Shown here piece after piece: positions 2,411 through 37,278 of a stretch of DNA of 64,000 nt. The stretch is taken from the NCBI GenBank assembly GCA_963575645.1, contig OY754465.1:27229501-27293500 (forward strand), read 5' to 3'. The position numbers and the translations under genes were made by a program. This DNA is from Xanthostigma xanthostigma (lineage: Eukaryota; Arthropoda; Insecta; Raphidioptera; Raphidiidae). The notes under the pieces were generated by a model, which saw only the letters and a program-made list of their open reading frames with translations, was not told the origin of the DNA and ran no database searches. Position 1 is the stretch's first letter; each line of letters opens with the position of its first letter.

Positions 2411-2625
2411 CCTTGAAAAAGACTGGATCTAAGTCGAAACGTTGGCAAATGTATTAAATAAATGCACTATATTGGAAGTCTATTGTTCCCAAGAATTTTC
2501 CACAGTTAAGGTACCTAATAATTTTCAATTATATATTTTTGTTAATATATTTTTGTCTGAAAAATTGGTCGAATTTTTTATTTATTGAAGAGTTCTAATT
2601 AGACGTTAATCAAAGTTTGACTTCT
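2411..2625 (+). repeat. Penelope-like 3' tail with decayed hammerhead-like core
   Basis: Bases 2411-2447 carry TTGAAAAAGACT, a loop, AGTC and GAAACGTTGG. This is the CTGAAGA / short helix / GAAA arrangement seen at five other places in the window, here with the first block degraded. The downstream tail (about 2531-2625) has the conserved GTCTGAAAAATTGGTCGA and TAGACGTTAATCAAAG found also at 8168, 37196, 40249 and 44281. It is non-coding. Assignment to Penelope-like elements rests on the coding copy at 24040-24546, which ends in a related tail. Confidence 0.55.
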
Positions 2626-3759
2626 TATCAATTCAGCGGGTATATTTATAATTTTGTTTTTTTTTTGTTGAGGTTAATTGCTTTGAATAATTAATTACAA
2701 CACTGCTGTGCTCAAGAGGATGAGGAAAAGTCTCCATATGTTTTTTTTAAACCGATTCAGTATTTTTTTCTGGTTAAGTAAATAATATCCAGAAAAAAGT
2801 CAGTTACAAAACCTCTTTGAAAAAAAAAAACACTGAAAATACAAAAATAGTAAAATTTTGAGATGGCGTTATTTTTTTAACAGTATATAAAAGTTTTAGT
2901 AATATTGATGCTGACTTAAAAATTTTAGTATTTTTTTTTCAATGAAGGTATTTTAAAAAAAAAGTTTATGTACATAACGTTATTAATTAGAATTCTATTA
3001 ATTAGAAATGAGCTCCCGTTTCTCTGAAAACTTAAAACAATTCTTTTCCATCATAATATAATATTCCATCCTTGCCAGAAAGTACAGATTCAGATAGACA
3101 CCAAGAAAGAGAATCTGTCAAAAGTGTTGTGAATTGGGGTACTGTCGTTTTTACCACATGGCGCATACGTCGTATTTATTCGACTATATTATGATAGAGC
3201 TTATAGAGTTCATCGATTTGATATAAATTGAAGAAATTTTAATATAATTCCTTAAATATTGCTTCTATAACATATCTCTTAAATTTCTGTTCGACCACTT
3301 GTTCTATAATAAAGAACATCTTTACACTTTGAAGTGTGATATTTTATAGATATAACTATAACGGACATATTTTTAAAGTGAAAATTTTTAGTTCGCAGTA
3401 ACTCAGAATCTTTCGTGACGGAAACTGACAAGTTTCTGCGTTGTATAACAATCTTAAGGGCATCCATTAAGAATATTTGTTACCTAATTGTTTGCCCGGC
3501 TTCTTATTCATCACTGAAAATGTCAAACTTAGGTTCAAATCCTGAACTATATATTTGTGATGTGCTATGCAATTATCATCCAATAGAGAACACTTATTTC
3601 AAATTAAATATTAAATTAAATTATTTATTAAGAAAGAATATTACAGTGGCGACGAGAATAAAACTCCATTTTCAATTTAAAATCAATTTCCTGAATTATA
3701 TTTTCAAATTAGAATATCTTTTGAAAAAAAAAACAAATATTTTTCCTAAATACAAGAAA
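2626..3759. other. AT-rich stretch, no gene seen
   Basis: Homopolymer runs and AT-rich sequence with no recognisable protein. The open frames at 3279-3467 and 3415-3804 are low-complexity and lack motifs; only the very end of the second runs into the transposase below, in another frame. Confidence 0.5.
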
Positions 3760-4453
3760 TATTTCCAGAAGATGTTGCAAATAGAAATTCGTTTTGTGAA
3801 CTAATGATGGAAAAATGCAACGAGAACCCTAATTTTGTAAAGAACATTTGTTTCACCGATGAGTCGACATTTACAACAAATAGTGCTCCAAATAAGCAAA
3901 CATGTCGTAGTTGGTGTAAACAAAATCCCCATATTGCGATCCCATTTCATACACAGTACCCTCAGAACGTGAATGTTTGGGTTGGTATGATGGGTAACAA
4001 TATAATTGAACCTTTTTTTATAAATAGGACATTAAATGCCCAAAAATACTTAGCTATGTTGCGAGATCAAATATCTCCGGCTATTCGTGCTGTAGCTGAA
4101 GATTTTGGGTCGGTGATTTACCAACATGACGGAGCAATAGCGTAAACGCCATGGCAGTCAGACAATGTTTGAATGAAATGTTTCCAAACAGATGGATAGG
4201 ACGTGGTGGAGCAATTCATTGGCCAGCGCGCTCCCCTGACTTGTTACCTAACGATTTTTATCTGTGGGGCTACTTAAAATCAAAGGTTTTTGCTGTGCAA
4301 AGACATCTTAATTTAGATTCTGTGAGAGATAAAATAGTGGAAATGTGTTTCAATATTTCACCAAAAACTTTGCAAAACGTACAACGCCAATTTTATGAAC
4401 GTTTAGGACATTGTTTGGCCGTAGGCGGAACAAATTTTGAACATTTATTATAA
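3760..4453 (+). pseudogene. Mariner-related transposase, 3' two-thirds
   Basis: The translation carries the catalytic core of a mariner-related transposase: FTDESTF (first aspartate, near 3858), NVWVGM, QHDGA (second aspartate, near 4129), then RWIGRGGAIHWPARSPDLLP and NDFYLWGYLKSKV with the third aspartate near 4254. About 41 residues separate the second and third aspartates, the spacing called DD41D. The helix-turn-helix N-terminus is missing; homology begins at about 3760. A stop and frameshift at 4141-4150 break the frame just after QHDGA. The C-terminus ends naturally after NFEHLL. No matching TIRs were found, so only the coding part survives. It is non-functional as read. Confidence 0.85.
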
Positions 4454-4700
4454 GTATATTGTTTTAGTTACTTTTTTTGTTCTATTTTTGTAAAAAAAAA
4501 TAAAAATAATGATTTTTATAAGCATTTTAAATAGAAATCCTCAAGATTACCATAGTAACGCAATAGAAATAACAATTAATGCAGTCAAGGCTAACTCTGA
4601 TCCATTCGTTTTTTCCCAATGCTAATTTCTCTATGTGCACCTTACGCGTTTACATACTGTATAGACGAGGAATTAAATTTTACAGAGCTTGTTAGTTTTT

Positions 4701-4800
4701 TGGATTCAGGGGACCTCAAAACGAAAAATTATTTTAAAATTTTGAAAAGTGAATTTCGACCTAAACTACTATTCCCCACTTGTGGGTTGGAATGGTAAAA
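4701..4800 (+). repeat. 3' end of repeat family G
   Basis: The block with GGGGACCTCAAAACGAAAA, TTGAAAAGTGAATTTCGACC and CTTGTGGGTTGGAATGG matches the right ends of the copies at 40718-41390 and 50057-50720, and the inverted copy starting at 32290. Only the terminal 100 bases are present. Confidence 0.6.
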
Positions 4801-5811
4801 TTACTGCACAAAGGTTTAAATATGTTATTTAAAATATTTTTGTTCAAATACTTGAATTAAGTTTTGTAGATGAATTAAGTTTTAAAATATTAAAATCATA
4901 TAGAAAAAACGTGATGAATGAATTACCGACATTGAAACAGTATGTGATTAAATTAATTTGCCTTAACTTTATAGTGAACGAACATAAATAATTAGTGTTA
5001 AATTCATATCAGTCATAAATGATCGTTCATGTCACAGAGCCAGTGTCCGTTAAGTCATCCAAGCGGACGCTGGCATCCGCGCTGGCCGTCCGCTCCTTTG
5101 TAAAGAGAATCAGATAAAAAACCTTAGAATATATAGAATAGACACTTACAGAAGTTTGTGGGCTTATATTATGTCCAGTCGACCACTGTTCAATTAATTA
5201 TCTCTCATACAGTGTAATGCAGTGGAATTTTTTTTTGTATTGTATTAATTGAAATTAGTATTTGATTAATTAAAATAATATATTTGTAAATATCTTAGAT
5301 ACAATTATATTGACAAATATAATTATAGTAATTGCAAAATTATTTCTTATAACATTTTACAATAAATCTGGCGAGTTGAAATAGTATTGTGAACTGTGTT
5401 AAAATATTTTTATGAATTGTAAATTTTAAAACTGAAAGATTATAATCTTTTATATATAAAAATCCGGTGTCCGTATATTCGTAATTCTTCTCCTCTTACA
5501 TGACTTGATCGATTTTTTTTGTACCTATTGGGTCACCTGGAGTTCTGAGCTATAGTTGGACCCGGTAAGTGGCGCTGTTGACGGATCCAGATATTTTTTC
5601 TATTTTCCGACCAAATTTTTTTATATATATTTTTTTTTTGATTTCTCATTTGAATAAAAAAACATATCCCAAATTATAATCCTGACTTATTAAAAAAAAA
5701 TAACGTTTCATTCATAACTAATAGACGCCGATGACCTCAGCTGTTGAGCGTCTATAATTTACAATCTCTCTCATAACTGACCGTTTGCCTTCCAGGTCTG
5801 CTATTATTCTA
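4801..5811. other. No gene; degenerate repeat remnants
   Basis: AT-rich with no coding signal. Around 5455-5600 a TATATATAAAAATCCGG start followed by a GATCGATTTTTTTT block looks like a decayed Helitron 5' end. Bases about 5726-5777 (GATGACCTCAGCTGT and TCTATAATTTACAATCT) recur inverted at 21619-21655. Confidence 0.4.
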
Positions 5812-6297
5812 TAAAAACTTTTTAACAAAAAAATTAAACCGCCGAAAAACTGAAAAGCAAAAAATAATAAATCTTTTTATTTAACTAAGTTCTATCTAAG
5901 TAGTTCAACGTATGTGACAGTCTAGTATATCTAAGTAATTTTGAGTCGGCGTCAACAATCCTTCGCCGGAAATCTCTGAGCATTCACGAAGTTAATATCA
6001 GGGACAGAGCAACCCTAACGGGCACACTGAGGGCACACGTCTTTGCGAGTGGTCGTGTGGAGAGTGCATGTTTAGAATGTTAATGTTTATCGCTGGAGAT
6101 TTCACGTATCATTGTTAATTTGATTTTTTAGTGATCTTTGTTCATTGATGGTTTGACGCCGACTCAAAATTACTTAGATATACTAGACTGTCACATACGT
6201 TCAACTACTTAGATAGAACTTAGTTAAATAAAAAGATTTATTATTTTTTGCTTTTCAGGTTTTCGGCGGTTTAATTTTTTTGTTAAAAAGTTTTTAT
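5812..6297. repeat. Foldback element with 148-bp arms
   Basis: The left arm (5812-5959) and right arm (6151-6297) are near-perfect reverse complements; both contain TAACTAAGTTCTATCTAAG and GACAGTCTAGTATATC or their complements. The outer end, TTTTTAACAAAAAAATTAAACCG, is shared with the foldback at 32936 although the rest of the arms differs. A 190-base unpaired centre carries GC-richer sequence without an open frame. It is a non-autonomous DNA element of unassigned superfamily. Confidence 0.75.
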
Positions 6298-6360
6298 TTA
6301 ATAATTTTTTGTGGCTATATAATTTATAATTGTAATATACACAACTCAGCATGAAAATCT

Positions 6361-6775
6361 GTGAGTGAACCATAAATCACCCCTATTTTCCCACCCTTAG
6401 GGTAGGATTTTTTTTTCCAAATTTATATGAGACAAACCTCGAGGTATACCCTATCCAATAAAAAAATAATTATCAAAATCGGACTACTCTGTAAAAAGTT
6501 ATGTGTGGTCATACATTACAATCAGTGAGTGAACAATCAATCATCCCCTGTTTTCCTACCCTTAGGGTTGGAATTTTTCTACCAAATTTATATGGGACCA
6601 ACTTCGGGGTATACCCTTTCAAACAAAAAAATAATTATCAAAATCGGACTACTCTGTAAAAAGTTATGCGTGGTCATACATAAATAAAAAAAAAAAAAAA
6701 AAAATAAAAAAAAAATATACGCGTCGAATTGAGAACCTCCTCCGTTTTTGTTTTTCGTCGGTTAAAAAATCCGAT
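6361..6775 (+). repeat. Tandem 164-bp dimer, A-tract and TCGGTTAA end
   Basis: Two direct repeats begin at GTGAGTGAAC (6361 and 6525), each about 160 bp, both ending in CGGACTACTCTGTAAAAAG and GGTCATACAT. An A-rich tract (6681-6717) follows, then AATTGAGAACCTCCTCCG and GTCGGTTAAAAA. The same closing motif occurs at 33225-33257, behind the other foldback of this family. Confidence 0.65.
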
Positions 6776-6904
6776 GCAGCATTATATGAAAAATTTGCAA
6801 TATTACCTAATGAACTGATTTCTTAGGCATTGTTTGAAACATAAAAAAAAATGTTATTTAAAAGGAGTATAGCTAAAATGTGACGTAAGGAAATTTTTTA
6901 AATT

Positions 6905-7066
6905 TTAACTTCCCGCTTTAAAAAAAAAATTTTTTTTTTTTTTTTTTCAAAAATTGGGAAGTTATTGGTTCCATCCCGATTTTCGAAAATCGAGTTTTCG
7001 CCAGATCTCGACGTTTTGAGGTCCTAGGAAGCTATTTTGGCGATGATGTCCGTAGGGCTCTATGTA

Positions 7067-7097
<31 letters not shown>

Positions 7098-8021
7098 ATG
7101 TAAACCTTTTATATCTTTTGAACGGAGTGTCCGACTGAAACGCGGTTTGCGGCATCTGACGTGATCTTGGTGAACTTACTTCCTGAAAATTTGAAACGAT
7201 TCGGCCCAAAAAATTTTGAGAAATCTTAAAAAAACAAGTTTCAAAAATTTTTTAAAATTTGTTTTTGTAAAATATTTTCTAAACTACTAAACCGAATAAT
7301 TCCAAAATCTAATCAGCTCTTCTCCTGAACAAACTGCGTCGATTTCCGCAAACCGCATCAAAATCGGTACATTTGTTCACGAGATACCGTGAACGAAAAA
7401 ATCGTAAAAAAGTGTTTTTTTAAAATGATTCTTAAAATTGTTATCAGATCGATTTTTTTGTAATAAATTACTTTCTTAGGCTAAAAAAACTGCGTCGATC
7501 GCCGCAAACCAGATCAAAATTGGTTCATTTGTTCATGAGATAACGTGAACGAAAAATTAGGAAAAAAGTAATTTTTTATAATTACTCGTAAAATTCTTAT
7601 CAAATCGATTTTTTTGTAATAATTTACTTTCTTAGGTTAAAAAAACTGCGTCGATCGACGCAAACCGCATCAAAATCGGCTCATTTGTTCACGAGATATC
7701 GTGAACGAAAAATTTGTAAAAAAGTGTTTTTTTTAAATTGCTTGTAAAATTCCTGAGATCGATTTTTCTGTAATAAATTACTTTTTTAGGATAAAAAATT
7801 GAGTCGACTGCCGCAAATCGCATCAAAATCGGTTCATTTGTTCATGAGATATAGTGAACGAAAATTTCGGAACAAAGTGTTTTTTTTTTGAGCTCGAAGA
7901 GCTAAAAAATAAACTTCTTGCTATATTTTATATATTTTTGAGCGTTTTGAACTCGAAAATAGCGGGAAGTTACAGGGATGGCCTGCAGGGTCAAACTTCT
8001 TTTCAAATTTTTTTTGTAGAA
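6905..8021 (+). repeat. Repeat family K, copy 1 (four internal units)
   Basis: The repeat opens with AACTTCCCGCTTT and closes with AGCGGGAAGTTA plus GGCCTGCAGGGTCAAACTTC, so its ends are inverted copies of a GCGGGAAGTT motif. The interior has a GT/ATGT microsatellite (about 7065-7100) and four direct units starting at about 7334, 7490, 7646 and 7800 (period about 156), each with CTGCGTCGAT, CAAACCGCATCAAAATCGG and TTGTTCACGAGATA-like blocks. An inverted copy at 27243-28152 has three units. No open frame with motifs is present; the class is unknown. Confidence 0.75.
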
Positions 8022-8099
8022 ATGACAGCTATTTGAAAAAAAACTCGAATTTGCGTCAAAATTTTGAGTTTAAAAAAATTATAACTTGATTGATCAGCT

Positions 8100-8205
8100 C
8101 TGAAGAAGATCCAAATCCGGACCGCAACGTCAATGTATTAATTATTATTTTTTGTAAATATATTTGTCTGAAACATTGGTCGATAATTTTATTTATTGTA
8201 GTATC
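8100..8205 (+). repeat. Penelope-like 3' tail
   Basis: CTGAAGA at 8100 is followed by a GATCC/GGACC imperfect helix and GCAACGTCAATGTATT (one change from GAAA). Next comes the conserved tail GTCTGAAACATTGGTCGATA and TTTTATTTATTG. Order and spacing match the tail at 2531-2625 and join the hammerhead-like core to that tail in a single copy. Confidence 0.6.
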
Positions 8206-10989
8206 GATATAGCTAAAGGGGGTCCGGAATTTCTGACAGTGAATGTGTACCTAAGTTATTTTTAGTTTCCGAAACTCCGCAAAGGAATAATGTAATATCC
8301 CCTGCCAAGGCTTTGGGTTTTCCTAACGGTCCGATCGCTACCTGAGTTTCGAGTAGACTCCAACGCACTCACTGCTAATTGCCATAACTTAGTAATGTAA
8401 GGAGAAAAATTGTCCACGGAAAAATTTCCTCTGTTTTTCCGGAAAATTTTCAATGTCAAAAAGGCAATTTATTAGTAATATTTTCATGAACATTATTGAA
8501 CTTTCCATACTTTGTTTTATTAGTCAATTTATGTACCATTTAAACAAAAACTACAGGTTATAATTTAAATTTTGTAATCTACATGAATAAAATTAAGTTT
8601 GATTCTGTTTTACTTAAGATTTGTTGTATTGTTTAATTTGCAACGCATAAAAAGAATTCATACTATTACATTATAAAAGAGCACACAGAAAATGAATCAC
8701 CCATTTATTTTGTTATTTAATAGTAATGATGTAGTAACAGAGGCCAGAAGATGGCATCACTGTACTGACTACTGCAGTTATAAAGGGAATTCCCCTCATG
8801 TAAACAGCACTACATTATTGTTTTTTGTTGGAATGGAAAAACTCAAAAGGACATTACATCCAGAGCTGATGAAAATACTCGTTTTATTTACTTGTAGCCT
8901 TTAGTGAACGAAAGTGTAATTTTACAAAACCTTATTAATTTAGTGGCTTAGTAAATTTTTAAGAAAATTTTGAAAATTTTCTGTATCAAAATTTTTCGGA
9001 AAATCCATAACTTTACACTATAACTTCGGTAATAATTTGAATTTTGGAATGGTTGGAATAAACGCTTAAAAGATTTTCAAAAATATAAACAACAATTCAT
9101 CAAGCGAAAAAAAAACAATTTTTTAAAAATCTTAAGGTGGCGTAATACCTTATGATAATTTTTGTCTGTTGACGTAAAACTTCTTCAGGCGTGTTTTGAG
9201 AATTTCCAGAATGGGCAGCTCCGTGAGTTGCCGTCATTAATTATATAGTATAAGCTTTGTACATTTTCAGTCTGAGAGTTGAAAATAATCGTCTTTTCAG
9301 TATTTCTTGCCGCTAACATTATTTACATATTGTTTACATAATTTACTTTAACTGCGCGTAAATGTTGCACGTGTAGTTTTTTTGACATATCGCAATTTAA
9401 TAATCCGTATATAGAGGATAAAATATAATTACGAAACAGAAATTTCCTAATTTGACTCCAGTGGATAACAGTCTCTACAGTCGCCCCAAACCCGGCTGGG
9501 CGTATAGGCGTACGGGCGGTATGTATAATGCCTATGCGTAGCTGTTTGTGACATGTCGTACCCCAACTCAGTATGTAATAATGTTAATACGGGTCGTGGA
9601 TATTATACTTTTTGTCCAGTTTAATGACAGTCGGGAAATTAATAAAGGCAACGACAAGTTTTTGTTTGAATATATCATCTATGACCGGTACTTAGTTTTT
9701 CATATCTTATAAACATAAAACGGTAAAAAATAATTTAAATTTGGATTGAAAATGATCCATACAGTTTCTATTTTTTTTTTCAAATATAATGATTCAAATT
9801 TCGGTGCTCATTAAATTCTAAACTCTGGGCACTCGTGTATATAGTTTAATTATTAAAGCGTCCTTGTAACGGAAATATTACACAAGTTCAAAGGTTCTCA
9901 CGCAAACGTCGTTATAATATGTGTATTATACTTTTAGGCACGACCTAATCATAGCTAATTGCTCTGTGAATCTGTGATCACGATTTTTTTTTATTGCCGT
10001 AATAGTCGCCTTCAATGAATACATAAAACAGGCAAATTCTTCGAAGTGCGCAAGAACAGCTTCGATTTTGATGATTTTTTTTAAATTTTGTTTGTTTATA
10101 TTATTGAAAATCAGAAACGTTTTGGGGCGGAGAACAAATTATTTATATTGTTTAAAGGGCTAGTGGTAGTCAAAGGAATGAAAAAATTTTTAATATTTTT
10201 TTTTTCGACAAAATTTAATTTACTTTATAAAGCTAATACTTATATTTCAACTTGGCTTCACTAAATTAAAAAAAAAAAAATTGGACGAAGCTATCTTTGT
10301 TGGCCCCTCTGGCAAGTATAGGTAATGCTTTACGATGACCATCATAACTTTGTGCTGGTTCATCCAAAATCAATAAAACAAAAAAAAAAGTCTTTAGTTT
10401 AATAGTATATCTAGGACTCAATAGAAGCTTTTTTTGTAAATTAATAAAATGGCGGCTTCTCAAACGGGACTGAGACTGCTCTTCATATTCTTGAGTTATA
10501 GTAACTTTCGTGTCTAGAGCTTTGCTTAAGCTACGTGCTAGACCAGATTTACGCTTGCAATGCATATAAATAAAACACACAAATAAAAATACCTTATCAC
10601 ACTAAGCCAAACGTAATGTTTATTATAAATGGAGATGAAAATAAAGTACTTAACCTACCCACTAAGTAACTAATTACGAAAAGTGTTTTTTTTTTTGCTT
10701 TAAACAAATAACTAAAACAGTAAGGAATGTAGGTTTTAAGAAATAACCTTAATGTATAAGAATCTTCGCAGGTACCTACGACAGCAGCAATTAATAAAAA
10801 AAAAAACTGAACAAACTGAATATAACCGAATTCGTTGCAGCGTAAATTTTAATACTGGCATACGTGTCTGTCATGTGGGTAGGCGTAGTTAGTGATGTAT
10901 TTATTGGAACTATTTTAGCTCCTTCGGGGATTATTTTGCAAGAACGCTGAAACACATAGGTAATTCTTTTTTTCTTACCAAAAGCCTAA
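8206..10989. other. Long stretch without recognisable genes
   Basis: No transposase, reverse transcriptase or host domain could be recognised on either strand. The open frames at 8262-8459 (minus), 8692-8904 (plus) and 10266-10580 (minus) have no motifs I know. The 8280-8370 block (GGTCCGATCGCTACC, GAGTTTCGAGTAGACTCC) is GC-richer than its surroundings and may be an unidentified repeat. Confidence 0.4.
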
Positions 10990-11219
10990 ATATGAATTTT
11001 CATATTCCTAGTTTGAGAAATGGTGGACTCCCCATACAAATTTCCATTTTCTATTGCACCCCTTCAGGGTTTTTTGAGTCAAAAGGTAGCCTATATCCTT
11101 CCTCAGGATGCACTCTATCTCCTTGCCAAATTTTATCGAAATCTGTTCAGCGGTTTTGGGCGTGAAAAGGTAACAGACAGACAGAGTTACGTTCGCATTT
11201 ATAATATTGCTATGAATTA
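10990..11219 (+). repeat. RTE-type short retroelement tail
   Basis: The block AAATTTTATCGAAATCTG, TTCAGCGGTTTTGGGCGTG and ACAGACAGACAGAGTTACG, ending in CATTTATAATATT, is the typical tail of RTE-derived short elements in insects (recalled from known families). The open frame across it encodes no known domain. Confidence 0.5.
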
Positions 11220-12379: not shown

Positions 12380-12564
12380 AATGTGTAATAAGTTCAAAAG
12401 TTAATTAATGTATTAGAAGATACCTATTATATAAAGAAAACAAAAATTGCTGCATGGGTTGCACTCGGGTTGATTCTCTTCAGTGAAGTACCTTGTCTTG
12501 AATTCCTTTTTAATGATAGTTTTTAAGTTTTTATAATTTTAATGATTTTTATAAAAAAACTTTT

Positions 12565-12668: not shown

Positions 12669-15600
12669 TTATGTGCGTATTGAATAATTATGAAGTACCT
12701 TGTGATATACGACATTTTTCGTTTTGTTATCAAGCGCAAGAACAAATAAAGCGGATGGTTTGCCGACACGTGAACATGCCGCGTACAATTGACCATGAGA
12801 AAAACATGAATTTTCTAAATTCAAACCACAAACACTCAACGATTGGCCTTGTGATTTGTTAATCGTCATGGCGAATGCAAGACGAATCGGAAATTGAATT
12901 CGTTTAAATTCAAAGTACATATCGGTTGGGATCATCGGAATCCTCGGAATGAGAAGTTCCTCACCTTTAAATTTTCCTTTGAGTATCGTCGCGTGAATCA
13001 CATTGATCTTATCACCAAACGCGTGCCATTGCATAGTTTTGGTTGGTTTAGATTTCGAAGCATGATTACTACCGATCCAACCTTTAGTTGTAAATTGTGC
13101 GGTGGTAAGCCAGGCACATCCAAAGAGTTCAAAAATTCAGTTGGATAGTTGGTGGCTTCGTCTTCGTTTGTTACACAGTCAATAGATTTGAATGAATGCA
13201 GAGTACCAACGATTTGATTCTGAATTACGAAGTTTAAGTCATCCACATATTTGTTCGTAGCCGCCAAAATTGCTCGCCCACTCAACCATTTGTTATTTTT
13301 ATGATTAGCAATGATGTTCGGGAATACTTTGTTGATGAGCTCGTATTTCGATGAGACGAAATTGCAAAAATTCGTAGGAAATGAAATCAATCCGCTCGAT
13401 TCGTCGACAGGAATACGACCATTACCGATAGTCAGCAATTGCTTGGAGAAATCATCAGCAGATGGATCATTCAGCAATGCAACTCTCATGTTTGCTGCCA
13501 GTTGAAGTTTCTTCACATAGCCCCACAGATTTGATGATTTGAGGCAAGCGTTTATTTCATCGGCAGGAGTCGACCTTGGAATGACTGGCAGTGTTTGGTG
13601 GAAATCGCCAGACAGTAAAATAATTGCGCCTCCAAAACATCTCGAGTCATTGCGCAGATCTTTCAATGTTCGATCAAGTGCTCCCAATGCGCGTTTGTGG
13701 GCCATTGTGCATTCGTCCCAGATGATGATTTTAGATGCTACTAAAACTTTGGCGATTGTGGAGGTTTTTGCAATGTTACATGTCGGTTTTTCAGTAGTTT
13801 GAAGGTTTAACGGCAATTTTAACGCTGAATGAGCCGTACGGCATCATTCTAACAATGTTACCGCTATTCCAGAAGAAGCAACTGCTACCGCAATGTCGGA
13901 TCTCGCACGAACATTGGCCAAAATCAATGACATGAGGAATGTCTTCCCAGTTCCACCGGGGGCATCCAGGAAAAAAAGCCATCATTTCCATCATCAATTG
14001 CTTTCATTAATATATTATAGACTTCCTTTTGTTGGGAGTTCAACAGGGGTACATTCGTTTGAACAGATTGATCTAATTCATGTCGATCATATTCACGTTC
14101 ACGTTCCAATTCTCGATTAAACGCATCATTCATTCCACGATCTGGCGCTGGCATTCCGAACCTGATTAACAAACTGCCGCACATGTGGTAACACATGTCT
14201 TCGATCAAGAGCAAAGCCTGGTTATGTATCTCCTGATTCACTTCAAGATCGACACGAATTCGATGTAAACTGTCTTCTGACATGTTCTCCTTGTATTTGT
14301 TCCACAGGTCGCATGGATTCGATGGGAAGCATGTCGAAATGATGTAGCAAATAATGTGCGTATCTGACTTGGAGATGCAGAAATAATTGCTTCAGCGATG
14401 GTCGTATCCCAATGAGTATCGTTTTCAAGCAAACTGAGCTGTTAACATGCAGCACGAAATGTTGGGCACACTATAGATACCATTAACAGTTCGTAGTGAT
14501 TCAAATGATGTTGGCCCACGAACATTTACCAGCAACAACCGCAAATAGAAGCATTCGTCATTCTTCGGATGAACTGTGTAAATTCGACCAAGAGCATCAG
14601 TAGAACGCACATCCGGATGACCAGGAACCACATCGCCTTGCTTACGACGTTGAAATTTCTTCGATGAAGTGTCTTAAGTGTAATAACGTGGTATCTCCGA
14701 GTAAAGCAACGTTCGTGCAAACGTGTCGCTTTGGCAAATCGCAAAGAAAGTGGTCAATGTTGTCGCTGGAGGTGTTTCAGCACGTTGAGCAGCATTCGAC
14801 GCGGTTAAATATACTCGTTGACCATTCTCCAGATGCACCGCCAAATGTACAACAGCGGGATGACGTTCGTGAATAGGGAATGAGAATATACGCCAAATCG
14901 CCTCATTGCAGTTCACATATCGGCCAACTTGATAGCGCGTAATTTCATCGTTGGTATTGGAGGTTTGAATGCCAAAAACCGCCATATCGCTCTCTTTCGT
15001 GACATATTTGCAGATGTATTTGATGGACTTCAACGAATTGCAATATTCAACGTTGCAATGTGTCTTGAATGTTTTGGAAAAAAGTGGCGAATATAGAACA
15101 ATCCAACTATTGTCGACCACAAAATCGTTTCCTTTCACTTTCGTTGTGATAGTTCGACCGTTTATCATCGGGTGATTGACGTCGATACAGTGGATAACCA
15201 TCGTTGCCAGTGATGGTCTCTGCCGTAAATTTTCGTTGATAACGTTTTGAACACTTGCCATCAACCATGCACGGTGATTGGGGGTTGATGGCACCACACG
15301 GTCCATGAATCATATTCGTAATTACAACATCGTGTAGGTCTGGATCGGTTTGGGGATCAGGAATCTCGGCACAAATGATATCATCTATTTGGTCTGGTTG
15401 AATTCTTTCGATTAACCAAATAAGAATGTGTGCATGCGGCAAGCCTCGTTTTTGCCATTCTATTGAATACATCCAGCATCGAGTATCCCTAAAGACGCGC
15501 TGCTTAACAATGTACTTCATCAGCGACTAGATTTTTTCCTTGAAGAGACGTGCGGTGATGTGCCGATCACTTGATGTTTGTCCGGGAAGCAGCATTTGAA

Positions 15601-18115: not shown

Positions 18116-18600
18116 AAAATTATAGTTAATAATCACTGTAGTAAATTACCGTGGAATAAGTGTCACACTTTTCTATACCATGGAAATAGCTAGACAGGGC
18201 AGCGTTGGAATTCCGTGGTGTAGTAGATTAGGCCTGCCGACATAATGGATTTTTATTTTATTCAATCGTTGTTTTTATATTTTTTCCAATTTTATAATTC
18301 TTAAATTTTTAAAAAAAATTCCAATTTTTAATTTTTACAATTTTTTTATTGCTTTTAAATATTTTTTCAATTAAAAAAAAAATATCATACAGTGGAAAAC
18401 TGCGGAATGTGCACTTTCGGTATTGCCAACTATTTTATTTTACTGTGATATTTTGCAAGGCTGGTTTTAGAAATTGTGGAACGTTTTTAAGTTAAATGAT
18501 CATTCAAATATTTCGATATTTAAAAACTAGAAGCGAATTTTTATCAAAAATCAATTATAAACTAATTATTAATTATTTTTTATATTTTTTTAGATCAGTT

Positions 18601-18665
18601 CTGAAGAAGGTCCAAATTCGGACCGAAGCGTTAATGTATTGATTTTATATATTTTTTGTTATATA
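18601..18665 (+). repeat. Penelope-like tail with hammerhead-like core
   Basis: CTGAAGA at 18601, GGTCC, loop AAATTC, GGACC, then GAAGCGTTAATGTATTG. The five-pair helix is perfect; the following GAAA has become GAAG. The distal tail is replaced by unrelated AT-rich sequence after about 18665. Confidence 0.55.
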
Positions 18666-20440: not shown

Positions 20441-20918
20441 TACAGGCTGAGTTTTAAGTTGATGCTTTTTTTTACAGCGTGTAAAAATCAAATAGACGAT
20501 CAAATATTTCAAATAGTTTTTTTATCAAAACTCAAAAATAAGAGAGAAACAGCCTTTCGAAGTTTAAATAAATTTTATTAAATTTTCTTTAATTTTGAGG
20601 TCGGTCCTGGGGTTATATTATGTCACTATGGAAATAAGTTGTTATTATCAAGTATGTGTATTGTTCTGTTTTTGAGAGAATTGTGTGTGCCTCAATTATT
20701 TCTGTGAATACTTGATAATAATAACATATTTCCATAGTGATATAATATAATCCCAGGACCGACCTCAAAATTAAAGAAAATTTAATAAAATTTATTTAAA
20801 CTTCGAAAGGCTGTTTCTCTCTTATTTTTGAGTTTTGATAAAAAAACTATTTGAAATATTTGATCGTCTATTTGATTTTTACACGCTGTAAAAAAAAGCA
20901 TCAACTTAAAACTCAAAA
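20441..20918. mobile_element. Hairpin MITE family X, copy 1
   Basis: The element starts TACAGGCTGAGTTTTAAG, preceded by TA, and is almost wholly an inverted repeat: each arm (about 20441-20665 and 20690-20918) contains TTTTTTACAGCGTGTAAAA, AGAGAGAAACAGCCTTTCG, GGTCGGTCCTGGG and ATGGAAATAAGTTG or complements. The last bases of the right end (CCCTGTA, intact in copy 2) are lost. No coding sequence. A second copy lies at 55878-56301. Confidence 0.85.
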
Positions 20919-22226: not shown

Positions 22227-22961
22227 TAAAGGGTGTCTCAGCAAGAACTTGAATTTCGAATTGCGCGCCATTTTCGACTGTCAATTGTTGAGTCAACCAT
22301 ATTTGGTGTTTGTATAATTAAAACATTGACATTTACGAAAATGGTGCGTTATAGCTTAGAAGAACGTTTGTTTATAGTGAAAACCCATTACAAAAATTTT
22401 TGAAAATGTTGAAGGTGCCGCCGTGACTGTCGACGGTAATCGTTACCGGGCCATGTTGACAGACTTTTTTTGGCAAGAATTAGACGGAATTGACTTAAAT
22501 GAGATGTGGTTGACAGGATGGCGCTACCTGTCACACCGCACGTGAAACAATGACTTTGTTACAAACCACGTTTTCAGGTCGTGTCATTTCTCGTTTTGGA
22601 GACCAAAACTGGCCGCCAAGAAGTTGCGATTTAACTTGTTTGCACTATTTTCTCTGGGGTTATTTGAAAAGTAAGATCTATGCGAACCACCCTGAGACAA
22701 TTGAGGAACTCAAAGAAGAAATTTCACGTCAAATTCGTCAAATCCAGCAGCCTTTACTGCAAAATGTACTGCAAAATTTCGTCAAAAGAATGCATACCTA
22801 CCTGCCAACAGAGCAACGGTGGCCATTTAACCGATATTTTGTTTCATGTGTAAATGTCATCACTACCTCCATGCATATGTAGAAAAAAATGTAAATAAAA
22901 TGTTGAATAAATATATTTTTTTTTATTTTTAAAATTCAAGTTCTTACTGAGACACCCTATA
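22227..22961 (+). mobile_element. Deleted mariner-related element
   Basis: The ends TATAAAGGGTGTCTCAGCA and the complement of TATAGGGTGTCTCAGTAAG define inverted termini of about 30 bases (GTGTCTCAG.AAGAACTTGAATTT shared), with TA at the junctions. The element is 735 bp and carries a transposase with a large internal deletion. It sits immediately before a Helitron-like repeat whose first bases overlap the right junction. Confidence 0.8.
22341..22882 (+). pseudogene. Mariner-related transposase with internal deletion
   Basis: The start MVRYSLEERLFIVKTHYKNF (22341) is the N-terminal helix of this transposase family and ends at a stop. The sequence then jumps to the catalytic region: VDGNRYRAMLTDFFWQELD, then after a one-base shift QDGATCHTAR (second aspartate, about 22517), then NWPPRSCDLTC and LHYFLWGYLKSKIYA. 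The third aspartate is replaced by histidine (codon CAC near 22643), and the first aspartate region (FTDE) is in the deleted part. The C-terminal helices (PETIEELKEEI, QNFVKRMHTY) remain. Spacing between the second aspartate and the mutated third position is again about 41 residues. It is dead on three independent counts. Confidence 0.85.
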
Positions 22962-23704
22962 CTAATATATAAAGCAGAAGAGTTTGTTTGTTTGTTTGAA
23001 CGCGCTAATCTCAGGAACTACCGGTTCGAATTGAAAAAAATTTTTTTTGTTGGATAGCCCATTTATCGAGGAAGGCTATAGGCTATATAATATCACGCTG
23101 CGACTAATAGGAGCGGAAAATCAATGAAAAATGTTGCAGAATGTCAGTCAAAATTGTTCACAATATACTTATATTCAGGTGAAATGCCCTAACTGAATAT
23201 CCCAATATTAGCGGCACACGACAGAAGCTCGGTTAGATCAGCCGGTAGAGCGCTCGACTCATGATCTCAGGATCGTGGGTTCGAGCCCCACCTTGGACGA
23301 ATATGTTTTTAATGTTTTTTTTTTTTAATTTTCTATTTTTCTTTCTTCTAAGGCTATCATTTAAATTTATTTTAGTTTTATTTACGACTAATTAAAATTA
23401 AATAAATCTATATAATAGCTCATTTGAAAACTATTACAGTACCTATATATAAAAATAAGTTTCCTACAGTGTTTTCAATTAAATATTTATTATATTTTAT
23501 TAATTATACAGTAATTATTGATTTAAAAGAAATAATTATTACTACTTAAAAAAATATTTTCATCAAAAATGGAGGTTTGAGTTTAAAATAAGTAATAAAG
23601 CAGGGAACATTCATGTCTCGGTAAACTAAAATGAATGTGCTTACTCATGTCCCTCCCTTCCCCATTCGTTCTTTTGCACCCGGGTGAAACCAGACGGGAC
23701 CACT
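22962..23704 (+). mobile_element. Non-autonomous Helitron-like repeat
   Basis: The start TACTAATATATAAAGCAG, then GTTTGTTTGTTTGAACG, CTAATCTCAGGAACTACC and TATCGAGGAAGGCTATAGG are typical of short Helitron-like repeats in insect genomes. It ends near 23704 with CCCGGGTGAAACCAGACGGG and ACCACTAGT, a GC-rich fold followed by CTAGT. A tRNA-derived segment lies inside at 23228-23302. Assignment is from memory of such repeats and from the terminal signals. Confidence 0.5.
23228..23302 (+). pseudogene. tRNA-Lys-derived pseudogene, anticodon CAT
   Basis: The D-arm (GATCAGCCGGTAGAGC), the anticodon arm (CTCATGA between TCGA and TCTC) and the T-arm (GTGGGTTCGAGCCCCAC, perfect stem) closely follow a eukaryotic tRNA-Lys (CTT), but the anticodon position reads CAT and the acceptor stem has mismatches. 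It may be a mobilised tRNA copy or the head of a SINE. It is not a plausible functional tRNA. Confidence 0.7.
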
Positions 23705-23955
23705 AGTAATATTATAAAGAGAGAATGCGAATTTTGTGTTTGTGTATGTGCGGAGGGTACCTACTCTTCGAAACTACTTATCCGATTTCAAATTTTCTTC
23801 CACCAATATTTAGAATGTACCTTCAGGATGAACATAAGCTATATATTATAGCGTTAAAATAAAAACGCTTTTCGTGAAGACCAATTTTGCAAAGTAAGTC
23901 GACGAATAAACGGTAGCAATCTGCAAATTCAGGCGAAGCCAGCCCGGGACACTAG
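23705..23955 (+). mobile_element. Second Helitron-like repeat, head-to-tail
   Basis: Directly after the CTAGT of the previous repeat comes AATATTATAAAGAGAGAAT, then GTGTTTGTGTATGTGCGG. The repeat ends with CAGGCGAAGCCAGCCCGGG and ACACTAGTAG. Length is about 250 bp; non-coding. Two such ends in tandem suggest one element inserted at the terminus of the other. Confidence 0.45.
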
Positions 23956-24039
23956 TAGCCTAATAATTGTATTTACAATTCTGTGTTTTTCACAACTGAC
24001 GCATTATTATTATAATAATATTATAATAATTATGATATA

Positions 24040-24546
24040 GCTCCTATTGCCTTTTTCTCAATTGCATATATTCCCACATTATCAGAAAAATTAAAACATT
24101 TTTTTAAATCCGAAAATATTCAAATTGCCTTCAAAAATTGTAACTCTATATATAAAAACTTTTTTTCTAAATTAAAAGAAAAAACTGCCAAATTACAATG
24201 TTCAAATGTAGTTTACAAAATTGATTGTAAAGATTGTGATGCTGTATATATTGGTCAGACTTCTCAATATTTGTCCCAACGTTTAAAACAACATAACTAT
24301 GACATACAAAAATATAAAAAATATTTCCATCCCAATACTAATTTTACATCTTTAGTTCAACATTGTTACAACAATAATCATGAATTTGATTTTAATAACG
24401 CTAATATTGTAACACAGGAATGTAATTATTCTAAACGTTTATTTTTAGAAATGCTTTTCATTAAAAAATTCAACACAAGTGTCAACAAAAGAACAGATAT
24501 TGAGAGTATGTCCTCTATATATAGCAAATTAATTGACAAATTGTAG
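24040..24546 (+). pseudogene. Penelope-like element, GIY-YIG endonuclease end
   Basis: The open frame from 24040 reads APIAFFSIAYIPTLSEKLK, the connector after the reverse transcriptase in Penelope-like elements, then VVYKIDCKDCDAVYIGQTSQ (24207 onward), where VYK and YIG form the GIY-YIG motif. Next come LSQRLKQHNYD and, further on, LVQHCYNNNHEFDF, with ERLFLE-like EMLFIKKFNTSVNKRTD near the end. The reverse transcriptase is absent upstream, so this is a 5'-truncated copy. It ends at a TAG and is followed by the tail at 24924-24990. The intact protein would nick the target and prime reverse transcription; this fragment cannot. Confidence 0.85.
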
Positions 24547-24923
24547 AAACTATTTATAACAAGCATAAACTTATCAATGTTCTGTTTTTCGTGTTTTAAA
24601 AAAATTCAAAAACATTTTTTCAATCAGTATAACTTTATACAAGTAACAGACACATTTATACAGTTTTCAGTAAAAATATATTCGTTCTTTCAAGATAAAT
24701 AGTAATTTAATACCTTTGATGACAATTTTTATTTTAATTTACTTTATACATAACAATAATACTGAAAAAATTGGTAAGTTTATCTATTTTATTTCCAAAT
24801 TTTAACTTTAATTTTTAACAACAATAATTTAACAATAACAACTTTAAGATCAATAACATTAACAATAACAAATGTAACAACAATAATTTGAAACTTTTTT
24901 ATATATTAAATCTTTTAGATTCT

Positions 24924-24990
24924 CCGAAGATGGCATAAAGTGTGCCGAAACGTCAGATAATAAAAATGCAATAAAAATCTTCAGTATTTG
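24924..24990 (+). repeat. Penelope tail of the same copy, hammerhead-like
   Basis: CCGAAGATGGCATAAAGTG and TGCCGAAACGTCAG: the block CCGAAGA is one base from CTGAAGA, helix II is GGCA/TGCC, and GAAA is intact. It lies about 380 bases after the endonuclease stop, with AATAAAAATGCAATAAA behind it (possible polyadenylation signals). This links the core motif to a coding Penelope-like copy. Confidence 0.6.
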
Positions 24991-25054
24991 CTTTTTTCAT
25001 CGATCCTATGCCACCAGGATTCTTCCTTCTTAATCTTCTAATTATTATTATAGT

Positions 25055-25305
25055 CTAGTCCACAAACTCTATCTCTATTATTTATAGTTTTAATTTAACG
25101 TTGAAAATAAGGTTTCATGCGGCCGTTACAGCTCGAGCGCACAGCCCTGTTGAGAGAGTACAACACATAAAATAATTTTTTTATAGTGTTAATTAGCAAA
25201 TTAAAATTTTGAATAAATTATGGTATCATCTTAACACTTGAAAGCATAAAATTCGGTTGAAAGAAATATTTTAAATTTCTTTTTATATAAGTGACGCTAT
25301 TGTTA
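25055..25305 (-). repeat. Repeat family R, partial copy
   Basis: In reverse orientation it matches 46800-47020: TTTCAAGTGTTAAGATGA, ACCATAATTTATTCAAA, ATGTGTTGTACTCT, AACGGCCGCA and TTTTCAACGTTAAATT. It is partial, without the outer arms of the full element at 46264-47282. Confidence 0.65.
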
Positions 25306-25390
25306 ACTAACTAATTATTTTCGAAAAAACGCCTCCATTGGCAACAACAAAAAATGTTTAAATAAAAAGAAAATTAAAGTGAAAAGAAAA

Positions 25391-25760
25391 ATTAAAAAAT
25401 GTCGGCGGCAATCGAACCCGGCACATTGTCACTACTAGGTACAGACCTTATCATCTACGCCACGGCGCTGTACCGCTGTTATTGTGGTGTAGAAGTATAA
25501 GCACTTATTTAATTTGATTAACTTCTGAAAATTATCCATTTATTATAGCACTATTCTACGGTAAATTATGTTTTAACTACTTATTAGCTGTCAAAAATAA
25601 TAAAAAATAAAACTGTTTATGAAAATTATACTAGTGAACACATTTCAGTGAATTTAAATAGGATTCTGGTTTGATAGTAAAAAACATGAATAAAATATAA
25701 ACCAAGGCGATCCGACCAAAATTGCGATCTGTAGAGCTCGGACGTACATGAACTTTGAAA
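25391..25760 (+). repeat. Repeat family T, left part
   Basis: It contains a tRNA-like segment on the minus strand (25403-25478: A-box GTGGCGTAGATGATAAGG, B-box GGGTTCGATTGCC). It continues with AAAATAATAAAAAATAAAAC, GTTTGATAGTA and GCGATCTGTAGAG, as in the copies at 43287 and 56689. It stops at the microsatellite position (about 25760); the rest of the family sequence resumes at 26965 beyond the Harbinger fragments. Confidence 0.65.
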
Positions 25761-26015
25761 ACAAAATTGATTAAAAAATGTTGCTGGATATACTGCCATC
25801 AGAACAGCCGGTTTTCTTTGACTTCTACAAGATTTGGCTCCAAAAGGGCGCTGGGTGAGTCGCCCATAAGGAAATAACCAGAAGTTAAGACGTTCAAGTC
25901 AGAGGGATTGTCGGATATTGGAGTTAGGGATCACGAATTCAAACAAGCTTCAATCTGATTTAGGAGTATATACATTTCTTCAGAATATAACTCTATAATT
26001 TTTTTTCTATTTCAG

Positions 26016-26540
26016 TTTCCTGAAACACAAAAGGAAAGGAAAATGATAGCAAAAGAATTTGAAAATAGATGGAACTACTACCATCACTATGTCGGAGCCA
26101 TTGATGGAAAGCATGTTGAAACCGTGCCTTCTAAAAACAGTGGTTCATTATATTATAATTATAAAAGAAGGTTTAGCATGGTACTGCTGGTAATAGTGGA
26201 GGAGTTCTTTTAAATACAAAGTTCTATGAAAAACTTGCAAATAACTCATTAAATATTCCTCCTGAAGAAAAATTGAGCAACAGTTCTCGCATACTCCCAT
26301 AAGTATTTGTTGCTGACGACGCGTTTGCTCTAGCAAAAGTTCTGGTAAAACCTTTTAGACAAAGAGACATAGCAGACAATTGAATGAAAAGAATTTATAA
26401 TTATCGGGTTTCAAGGGCTCGTCGCGTAGTAGAAAATGCATTTGGAATATTTGCAGCAAGGTTTAGAGTGTTTAGGACAGCAATACACGTTTCAGCGATA
26501 AGCATTCTGCCGGTGGAAAATCTAATTCTTTCCGACACAT
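26016..26540 (+). pseudogene. Harbinger (PIF) transposase fragment, plus strand
   Basis: A splice-acceptor-like TTTTTTCTATTTCAG precedes the exon. The frame has YVGAIDGKHVETV (first catalytic aspartate), SGSLYYNYKRRFSMVLL, then after a deletion LLNTKFYEKLANNSLNIPPE, VFVADDAFALAKVL and, past a TGA, YRVSRARRVVENAFGIFAAR with the catalytic glutamate in VENAFG. This is the DDE_Tnp_4 domain (HARBI1 family). The segment that normally holds the second aspartate, between FSMVLL and the NTKFY block, is missing. A stop before VFVADD adds to the decay. Homology ends near 26540, where it meets an opposite-strand fragment. Confidence 0.85.
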
Positions 26541-26805
26541 TTTTTTGTATAACTCAGTGTTCCTGTACACGCCACCATTCGACCTTGGCACCCGCAATCC
26601 ACAAAAATAAAATTGTAATCTGCGTCAACTAAAGCCATAAGTACTACGCTGAAAGTTTTGTGATAGTTGATGATCTCTGACCCACTATGAGCAGGACTTT
26701 GTATTAACACATGTTTTCCGTCAAGTACTCCCAGGCAGTGCGGAAAATTCCAAATTTGGCAGAATCCTTTTTCTATCATTAACCAGTCTGATGATGTCCG
26801 AGGCA
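26541..26805 (-). pseudogene. Second Harbinger transposase fragment, minus strand
   Basis: Read on the minus strand, an acceptor TTTTTTTGTTTCAG leads into LPRTSSDWLMIEKGFCQIWN, then HCLGVLDGKHVLIQ (first aspartate), INYHKTFSVVLMALVDADYN and FIFVDCGCQGRM (second aspartate). It then breaks off near 26541. It is the same domain as the plus-strand fragment but a different, divergent copy, and covers the region the other one has lost. Together the two fragments form an inverted chimera of two elements or a rearranged pair. Confidence 0.8.
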
Positions 26806-26856
26806 GCTGAAACAAAAAAATAAGTTGTAAATTATAAGTAAGTTTTTATTTTTTCT

Positions 26857-27105
26857 AGGACTCTGAAGATAAAGAAGCAATCGAAGATCATATACAAAAT
26901 AACTCTGAAAATGATGATACAAAGCAGGATGATGAGGGAGAAAACCCACAATTTAAGACGCCAAAAATGATTTTCAATTACAATTTTAGAAGTAATTATT
27001 AACTCGAATCGATCAAAAAATGGTTCTATTTTATAGAACAAAATCTCCTTTTTTCAAAAATCTACAGTTTGAATGGATTTGGTGTGAAATTAACTTAGAT
27101 GTAAC
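26857..27105 (+). repeat. Family T right part, after the Harbinger block
   Basis: From about 26965 (GATTTTCAATTACAATTTTA) to 27105 the sequence matches 43915-44060: AAAAATGGTTCTAT, GAATGGATTTGGTGTGAAA, TTAACTTAGAT. So the T repeat begun at 25391 continues here. Bases 26857-26964 are an acidic open stretch after a TTTTTTCTAG acceptor-like site (EDKEAIEDHIQNN, NDDTKQDDEGE); I cannot identify it. It could be an exon of the Harbinger accessory gene. Confidence 0.5.
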
Positions 27106-27109
27106 TTTT

Positions 27110-27949
27110 CAATAAATAAAATTATCTTCACTTTTTTAAAAATAAATTTAAAAGATTTTTTCAACGGAACTTTATCTTTATTCTTTCAAGTGTTGGGATG
27201 ACACCACAATTTATTCAAATTTTTAAATTGTTATTTAATACTACTACAAAAAAAATTTGAAAAGAAGTTTGACCCTGCAGGCCATCCCAGTTTATTTTTT
27301 AGCTCTTCGAGCTCAAAAAAAAACACTTTGTTACGAAATTTTCGTTCACGATATCTCATGAACAAATGAACCAATTTTGATGCGATTTGCGGCAGTCGAC
27401 GCAATTTTTTAACCTAAAAAAGTAATTTATTACAGAAAAATCGATCTCATAGGAATTTTACGAGCAATTTAAAAAAAACACTTTTTTACAAATTTTTCGT
27501 TCACGATATCTCGTGAACAAATGAACCAATTTTGATCTGGTTTGTGGCGATCGACGCAGTTTTTTTAACCTAAGAATGTAATTTATTACAAAAAAATCGA
27601 TCTGATAACAATTAAGTCATTTTAAAAAAACACTTTTTTACGGTTTTTTCGTTTACGGTATCTCGTGAACAAATGAACCGATTTTGATGCGGTTTGCGGA
27701 AATCGACGCAGTTTGTTAAGGAGAAGAGCTGATTAGATTTTAGAATTAATCGGTTTAGTAGTTTAGAAAATCTTTTACAAAAACAAATTTAAAAAAATTT
27801 TTGAAACTTGTTTTTTTAAGATTTCTCAAAATTTTTTGGGCCGAATCGTTTCAAATTTTCAGGAAGTCTAAGTTCACCAAGATCACGTCAGATGCCGCAA
27901 ACCGCGTTTAAGTCGGACACTCCGTTCAAAAGATATAAAAGGTTTACTA

Positions 27950-27994
<45 letters not shown>

Positions 27995-28480
27995 GCCCTA
28001 CGGACATCATCGCCAAAATAGTTTCAATAGCTTCCTAGGAACTCAAAACGTCGAGATCTGGCGAAAACTCGATTTTCGAAAATCGGGGTGAAACCAATAA
28101 CTTCCCGATTTTTGAAAAAAAAAAATTTTTTTTTTTTTAAAGCGGGAAGTTAAAAATATTTTATATGTTGTACTCTGTCAACAGGGCTGTGCGCTGGAGC
28201 TGTAACGGCTGCACGAAACCCTTTTTTCAATGTTAAATTAAAACTATAAATAATAGAAATAAAGTTCCGGGATATGGAACTTTTTTAATGAAAATTTCCT
28301 TCTCTTTAAGAATCATTTTTTACGACTTCGGCTATCGCTTATATTTTTTGAGATATCAGCGAAGAACTTAATGCCTTTTTTCTTTTATCTTAATTTGTTT
28401 AAATAACTTTTGCGATTTCTTATGTGCTAATAAAATATTTTTATACATTTTTATAGACGTACTTCCGAATCTAATGAGCC
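27110..28480 (+). repeat. Repeat family R, interrupted by family K
   Basis: Bases 27110-27242 (TCAACGGAACTTTAT, CTTTCAAGTGTTGGGATGA, TTTAAATTGTTATTTAATAC) and 28153-28480 (ATGTTGTACTCTGTCAACAG, GTAACGGCTGCACG, CTTTAAGAATC, GGCTATCGCTTATA) are consecutive in the full copy at 46797-47110. The K repeat lies precisely between them. Confidence 0.7.
27243..28152 (-). repeat. Repeat family K, copy 2 (three internal units)
   Basis: An inverted copy of 6905-8021: it opens with AAGTTTGACCCTGCAGGCC and ends with AGCGGGAAGTTA. Units with CGACGCA and GAACAAATGAACC recur at about 27395, 27550 and 27705. A (CA)n run lies at 27955-27990. A block of about 60 bases near the K end (around 27290) is missing compared with copy 1. 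Confidence 0.75.
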
Positions 28481-29164
28481 GTCGGTCATTTTTGAACTAG
28501 CTATTTCAAGCCTTAACACGTTTTTGAGTTTGTGAACTAGACTATTATGCCAGAAGAAAATTCTATATGTACCGCGATTTAGGACCATTAACAGTGTATC
28601 AATTGGTGTTGTTTACATGTTGGCATGAGTCTTGAATTTGATGAAATAGTTATACATCTTACGACATATTTAGTTACATCAGATGTCTGCAACATGATAT
28701 ATTTACATATAACTTTACCTTATCAGTAAATAGCAAATTTAAAGTACACACAACTAGAGAGTAGGTCAGAATAAGGAAAATTCGTTGATTGTAAAAAATA
28801 CATAAAACTTGTTACAATAAGCTATACGATTTCCCTACAATATCGTCGTTGACACAATAGTTTTTTTTACTGTTGTTACAAGAAAGCAATAGAATTGTTT
28901 GTAAAAAAATACTGTTCGTTTCCTACAAGAAGACAAAAAAATACATTCACCGAGTTGAAAAAATGCTTGAATGTGTCTCTACTAAACGTGTAACTCTTGT
29001 TTAATAAGAACTCATATTCATCACGTGATAAATCAACAGAAAGAAAAAACAATAACTTACCAGCTACCCTACAAGAAACATTAAAGAGGGGTGAAAACAC
29101 AATAAAAAGCTTAATTTCATAGAGAATTTATTTTAAATTTAAGTTACACCTGATTAAATACGTA
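28481..29164. other. No gene seen
   Basis: AT-rich with one unrecognised minus-strand frame (28876-29100). No repeats shared with the rest of the window were noticed. Confidence 0.4.
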
Positions 29165-29290
29165 CTGTCCGTGATGGAAATTATTTATTTACAAACACAC
29201 GTTTAACAAAACAGTTAAACACACAAATGTAAAGTACTTCTCTAACGTAACAGAAACAAAACTCATAAACTCTGACTAATAAAATGATAG
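29165..29290 (-). repeat. Short repeat shared with 37793-37920
   Basis: In reverse orientation it matches 37793-37920: TTTTATTAGT, TTTGTTTCTGTTACGTTA, GAGAAGTACTTT, TTTGTTAA, TGTAAATAAATA and TTTCCA/TTCTAC-CACG. The pattern resembles the R/U5 part of an LTR but no internal retroelement domain is near. Confidence 0.4.
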
Positions 29291-29514
29291 AACAAGTAAT
29301 GAAGAATATAAAGTCACTAATTATGTACACAAAATATACCACCAACTCAAAATCCGGAATTACACTTCCACCGTTTTCCTGGATTTTTTATTTAATATTT
29401 CTAAATTTTTATATAGTTCTTTCACATATTGAGTTCAATAATATTAGTTCAGTTATCAATTGACATAATATTTTGATTAGAATTACATTTTTTTATTAGT
29501 AGAACTTTTGTTCC

Positions 29515-29697
29515 AAAAATGTGTATCGAAGGAGATTCGTTTGGTTGAGGAACAATTGAAAAATAAGCTTTACCAAAGTATCGCTTGTGGCCAACGTTTC
29601 GAAAAATCATCTTCAGGCCGATACTCTGGTAAAGCTTATTTTTCAATTGTTCCTCAACCTAATAAATATCCTTCAATACATTTTTTTATCTAAAGTC
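29515..29697 (-). repeat. Inverted Penelope tails around a hammerhead-like core
   Basis: Arms of about 60 bases (29515-29576 and 29631-29697, with GGTTGAGGAACAATTGAA and AAGCTTTACC) pair imperfectly. The loop holds, on the minus strand, GCCTGAAGATGATTTTTCG and AAACGTTGGCC: CTGAAGA, a short helix and GAAAC. In a hammerhead the flanking stem would close as helix I, so arm plus core is compatible with such a fold, although the cleavage-site nucleotides are not clearly present. Confidence 0.55.
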
Positions 29698-37265: not shown

Positions 37266-37278
37266 TCAAAAAATAGCT

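Follow-up and report, generated by a model that had tools for sequence, protein, structure and literature searches.

Dispersed and mostly decayed minimal hammerhead cores of likely Penelope origin in a 64-kb window of the Xanthostigma xanthostigma genome

Introduction

Minimal hammerhead ribozyme (HHR) motifs of Penelope-like elements (PLEs) were reportedly first described by Cervera and de la Pena in 2014 and by Lunse, Weinberg and Breaker in 2017. The subject of this study is a stretch of 64,000 nucleotides of the Xanthostigma xanthostigma genome (contig OY754465.1, positions 27,229,501 to 27,293,500 of the forward strand; hereafter the window), in which six sites, named A to F, show the order of a hammerhead core and are likely to be dispersed, mostly decayed copies of minimal type I hammerheads from PLE terminal repeats (pLTRs). 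As summarized in parts of two reports, minimal type I HHRs devoid of helix III number in the thousands in animal genomes, where they are mostly dispersed; some of them have been mapped to the pLTRs of PLEs, and they may self-cleave as dimers (PMC7761336, PMC6155905). Excerpts of other work describe double hammerheads with a palindromic stem III in a tandem arrangement (PMC6466107) and a palindromic stem III in Aedes and other hammerheads (PMC3088659). For a lizard PLE hammerhead, in-vitro cleavage occurred only with its protein and mutation was without effect on insertion, according to the relevant section of PMC11167929.

With the minimal type I hammerheads of PLEs, as far as the quoted portions of PMC7761336, PMC6155905 and PMC6466107 describe them, the window sites share the order CUGANGA - helix II - GAA, the UH cleavage site and a loopless, self-complementary helix III; they are likewise dispersed single copies, one of which adjoins PLE-type coding sequence. 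They differ in that four of the six are substituted at conserved positions and that, in a limited search, five are without a trace of PLE coding sequence; the extra A or U after CUGANGA, present in all six, may be a further difference.

Hammerhead-like cores at six dispersed sites

The initial annotation of the window had listed six sites with the order CTGAAGA, a short self-complementary helix, GAAA and then CGTT, CGTC or GCGC; all six read so, some of them with variants of one or two bases. The sites were parsed by script after direct reading of the sequence, and their bases are named after the hammerhead numbering scheme (Table 1). Elements of this scheme, namely CUGAnGA, the A15.1-U16.1 pair and C3/G8, are present in the hammerhead literature, including portions of PMC11167929 and PMC3088659.

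Table 1. Coordinates and composition of the features discussed. Positions of sites A-F give C3 / last base before the scissile bond; helix I is given as ungapped pairs outward from the core.
Feature	Position	Strand	Composition	Substitutions at conserved positions	Helix I
Site A	2413 / 2443	+	TTGAAAA-A-GACT(7-nt loop)AGTC-GAA-ACGT-T	C3U, G8A	3 (GCC/GGC)
Site B	8100 / 8131	+	CTGAAGA-A-GATCC/GGACC-GCA-ACGT-C	A13C	1
Site C	12565 / 12598	+	CTGAAGA-T-GGAC(8-nt loop)GTCC-GAA-AGCGCT-T		2
Site D	18601 / 18632	+	CTGAAGA-A-GGTCC(6-nt loop)GGACC-GAA-GCGT-T	A15.1G	3 (including one G.U)
Site E	24924 / 24954	+	CCGAAGA-T-GGCATA(3-nt loop)TGTGCC-GAA-ACGT-C	U4C	3 (UCU/AGA)
Site F	29616 / 29593	-	CTGAAGA-T-GA(TTTT)TC-GAA-ACGT-T		1
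Coding remnant, stop-to-stop frame, 5'-truncated	24019-24543	+	GIY-YIG endonuclease domain, CxxC before it
Left arm of inverted repeat at site F	29522-29583		62 nt, 90.3%, opposite 29619-29680
Right arm of inverted repeat at site F	29619-29680		62 nt, 90.3%, opposite 29522-29583
Viral loci L002, L004, L005, L006, L008-L011, L013, L014, L016, L018-L020			complete type I hammerheads, extra U after CUGAUGA

The presence of a UH cleavage position, which had been left open, is settled by the parse, as all six sites have one. The A15.1-U16.1 pair is possible at five of them, the substituted base of site D facing U16.1 as G.U. The stretches C3-U4-G5-A6-N7-G8-A9 and G12-A13-A14 are intact at C, D and F, and at every site one extra A or U separates CUGANGA from the helix II drawn here. 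At site A the two substitutions leave a 3-8 base pair possible, yet two transitions would equally give the same result.

All six sites have a loopless helix III, made of self-complementary bases that stand between GAA and H17 and read ACGU at A, B, E and F, GCGU at D and AGCGCU, a 6-nt palindrome, at C; this count is biased, since the sites had originally been picked by CGTT, CGTC or GCGC. Such a helix III cannot be formed together with helices I and II by a monomer, whereas two molecules or tandem motifs can form all three. Judged from the sequence, no site is a complete hammerhead on its own. The integrity of helices I and III, likewise left open in the initial annotation, is thus partial: the first three helix I positions are paired at A, D and E (3/6, against 6.3% of random placements; ∼0.004 by a binomial calculated by hand), while helix III is unformable in monomers throughout. 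Site D has an alternative helix I farther out, GAUCAGU with AUUGAUU. Helix II carries an A.C mismatch at site B and is reduced to 2 bp at site F.

Chance expectation of the motif

All descriptors used to estimate chance were written with the sites already known, so that the figures below are post hoc. When at most one mismatch was allowed over CTGANGA and GAA, with a helix II of at least four net pairs and helix III left free, the window held 29 matching places, three of them among the six sites, and this relaxed motif alone is weak evidence. A stricter scan, in which GAAACGTH was also required, was compared with 100 dinucleotide shuffles. With at most one mismatch it returned two sites (18601 and 24924) when helix II had 4 bp or more, where shuffles gave a mean of 0.02 and a maximum of 1, and again two at 3 bp or more (shuffle mean 0.08, maximum 2). 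With two mismatches it returned three matches at 4 bp or more, site A being in this class (mean 0.75, maximum 4), and four at 3 bp or more (mean 2.02, maximum 8); with three mismatches and at least 4 bp, 14 matches were seen (mean 8.44, maximum 18). When no helix was demanded, the core in its exact form was seen once in the window, at site F, where a first-order Markov calculation gives an expected number of 0.019. A perfect core that has 4 bp or more in helix II, a palindromic helix III and H17 also occurs once, at site C, with ∼0.01 expected, an estimate based on one match in 12.8 Mb of simulated sequence. Three further matches, at 27131 on the minus strand (the fourth with two mismatches) and at 2703 and 18807 (three mismatches), were set aside as the core is not kept in them.

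Sites C, D, E and F are hammerhead-like cores beyond chance, site A is marginal by motif alone, and site B satisfies none of the descriptors and rests on homology to site D. An observer who seeks CTGAAGA, a hairpin and GAAA in 64 kb of AT-rich repeat DNA might still collect chance look-alikes, an explanation that gains from the 29 relaxed matches, from the 14 three-mismatch matches against 8.44 expected, from the class of site A, which expects 0.75 and reaches 4 in shuffles, and from the failure of site B to meet any descriptor; it is nevertheless unlikely, as only ∼0.01-0.02 matches are expected in the classes of C, D, E and F, albeit under post hoc descriptors, and B is homologous to D.

Homology between copies and the question of covariation

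The sole alignable pair of sites is B and D, with 80% identity over 80 nt (8079-8155 and 18580-18659), the flanks of the other sites being unalignable. From sequence comparison, site B is a decayed homologue of site D. The only difference between their second helices is a change from G to A that faces an unchanged C, so that the pair is broken without compensation. The initial annotation had argued that the helix is conserved by pairing and that covariation between copies implies selection on RNA structure. The contrast between GGTCC/GGACC, GGAC/GTCC and GGCA/TGCC, on which the first part rests, is real, but it compares sites with unrelated flanks that were chosen by eye for pairing; the second part is rejected, given the non-compensatory change between B and D and the unalignable state of the remaining sites.

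Sites A and B have a tail repeat in common, of which further copies lie at ∼37208-37275 and 40249-40366, and this similarity may reflect a separate repeat. Two 132-nt inverted arms (1124-1255 and 2245-2376, 92% complementary) end ∼40 nt before site A; an element of the terminal inverted repeat type, to which these arms point, may have cut off the repeat of site A.

Penelope-type surroundings

Protein evidence for a PLE is found at site E only. The coding remnant upstream of it matches the GIY-YIG family of Pfam (PF01541, E 2.1e-5, 25.2 bits, cut-off 22.6), and a CxxC motif preceding GIY-YIG is a combination typical of PLE endonucleases. Site E follows the stop codon of this endonuclease at a distance of 378 nt and on the same strand, the placement expected of a 3' pLTR. 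The claim of six Penelope-type tails is thereby narrowed: protein support exists at site E, and for A-D and F a PLE origin is inferred. When viral contigs were searched for endonuclease relatives, five pattern matches were obtained, none of which was confirmed.

Retrozymes are another place where animal type I HHRs are found, as indicated in part of PMC7229834, and the five sites that have no PLE coding trace could be taken as a sign of such a source. The same portion describes retrozymes as tandem repeats that are short (∼150-450 bp) and contain type I hammerheads of the canonical form, whereas none of the repeat families found in the window sets a site within an array of this kind, the sites have no helix III and site E comes after a GIY-YIG open reading frame (ORF); a retrozyme-linked reading is very unlikely.

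Weight of the evidence

Derivation from PLE hammerheads is the best reading of the six sites, each of which has a UH position, even though the accompanying claims of covariation and of six tails are unsupported. Several results weigh against it, starting with the post hoc nature of the chance descriptors. Every conserved base is kept at two of the six sites only (C and F). Short RNAs around A, B, C and E are predicted to fold about as their shuffles do (z -0.59, -0.02, -1.23 and -0.81, respectively; -2.00 for D). No reverse transcriptase (RT) was found near any site, and no trace of a PLE protein near A-D and F, in a limited search made up of ten ORFs and a tblastn search with the site E endonuclease. 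The ten ORFs, of 60-135 aa (nine near other sites and one just upstream of that of site E), had no match in Pfam, and the tblastn search, made with that endonuclease only, gave no second copy in the window.

A covariance-model search, as proposed in the initial annotation, was run as Rfam scans. No hammerhead was matched in the whole window, either at the gathering score or at E up to 10, nor at A, D, E and F scanned singly, B and C being covered within the whole-window scan. The meaning of this silence was gauged on control hammerheads. The core pattern with an extra A or U was sought in viral contigs and found at 20 loci; helix II reaches four pairs or more in 17 of these, and 14 (10 distinct sequences; Table 1) combine at least four pairs in helix I, five in helix II and four in helix III, helices I and III being somewhat favoured as the best combination within 60 nt. 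These complete viral type I hammerheads share with the window sites CTGATGA-T-helix II-GAAACGTY with the extra base, which the search pattern required, but they have a helix I of 4-5 pairs and a hairpin helix III, the latter being absent from the window copies. Across the 10 distinct sequences, in an alignment with two rows misaligned in helix III, pairing holds in 94.2% of cells, against 79.7% in shuffles, and changes on both sides are seen in eight of 14 pairs, against 3.9, from which an extra base after CUGANGA appears compatible with a conserved hammerhead. At the gathering score, Rfam matched none of the 10 viral loci submitted, seven of which are complete, and at E up to 10 it found no hammerhead in L020, the only one of the seven so scanned. 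Since Rfam misses complete viral hammerheads with the extra base, its silence on the window says little and is not counted against the sites.

In prokaryote genomes the core pattern was found in 83 stretches, 10 of which have a helix II of at least four pairs; in one of these 10, L033 from a Paenibacillus zanthoxyli contig, helices I and III are present as well. When AGCGCT was set as helix III in a control pattern, 19 viral stretches were returned, and in none of them did helix II exceed two pairs, so that a chance match of that core is rarely accompanied by a helix. Among the viral loci, the stretch of L004 is partly matched in two phages, Faecalibacterium phage FP_Brigit and Flavonifractor phage Castelnaud, at 78-79% over 38-45% of the query.

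Site F and its inverted repeat

The core of site F lies at the tip of an inverted repeat, the arms of which show, over 64 facing positions, 56 Watson-Crick pairs, three G.U pairs and five mismatches. The predicted fold of this stretch reaches -90 kcal/mol, against -28.2 for shuffles (z -17), and the modelled minimum-energy structure pulls the core into pairs, which speaks against an active hammerhead. For this site alone, a foldback or a miniature inverted-repeat transposable element, with a hairpin loop that looks hammerhead-like by coincidence, is a possible though doubtful explanation: the 62-nt arms at 90%, the extreme fold with the core drawn into it, a helix II of just 2 bp and the other hairpin repeats of the window fit it, whereas the tip carries an exact CTGANGA..GAAACGTH, of which 0.019 occurrences are expected in a window. 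Moreover, abundant inverted-repeat structures, with palindromes at the junction attributed to self-priming, are reported for rotifer Penelope elements in part of PMC3846280, and the inverted repeat of site F with its core at the tip resembles these palindromic junctions.

A further likeness concerns the Anolis PAc PLE, the ORF of which starts at stem II, as stated in an excerpt of PMC11167929. An ATG is spelled at sites C, E and F by the final A of the core, the extra T and the G with which helix II begins. This ATG opens 53 codons at site F (29449-29610, minus strand), a frame that recalls the Anolis arrangement; at C and E, as a difference, it runs into TAA at the third codon.

Other repeats and elements in the window

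The surrounding DNA is repeat-rich and, judged by its mobile elements, appears to be of animal type. Broken frames at 12672-15526 (minus strand) include a piece at 13001-13843 with a PIF1 helicase match (PF05970, E 1.6e-36) and a Pif1 2B domain, and another at 14677-15309 without a Pfam match; together they look like the remains of a Helitron-like gene. A DDE_Tnp_4 transposase fragment, barely over the cut-off, lies at 26525-26845 (minus strand), and a DUF4817 helix-turn-helix ORF at 63057-63473 (minus strand, E 8e-12) is probably a transposase N-terminus. A hairpin repeat with arms 98% complementary (20448-20655 and 20708-20915) has a second copy at 55949-56303, and weak, sub-threshold Rfam matches of this repeat to plant miRNA families are probably due merely to the hairpin shape. 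One repeat with internal tandem units of ∼155 nt is present in inverted copies ∼20 kb apart (6937-7888 and 27315-28125). No tRNA was found in the window by ARAGORN.

Proposed mechanism and implications

In a live element, two motifs, carried either by the tandem pLTRs of a single transcript or by separate transcripts, would form a double hammerhead by pairing of the self-complementary bases of helix III; each motif would then cut after the UH that precedes helix I, and a multimeric transcript would be trimmed. In the window no tandem pair of motifs was found, the six sites being 4,434-6,292 nt apart and the nearby matches on the same strand (2703, close to A, and 18807, close to D) not keeping the core. 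The window copies are probably inactive, as four of them carry substitutions at conserved positions, no credible tandem partner exists and the coding copy is 5'-truncated. As it stands the finding matters little, adding one more genome, with worn examples, to those with known PLE-type hammerheads.

Site F might point further. As a long shot, it may represent a second role for the fold of the PLE hammerhead, in which helix I would act as a snap-back primer, the RT would turn there and the inverted arm would be copied. If so, the ribozyme fold would, beyond cleavage, explain the palindromic inverted-repeat junctions of Penelope elements and, should the arrangement of site F recur across copies, the unexplained role of the PLE hammerhead would be tied to the inverted-repeat structure of these elements.

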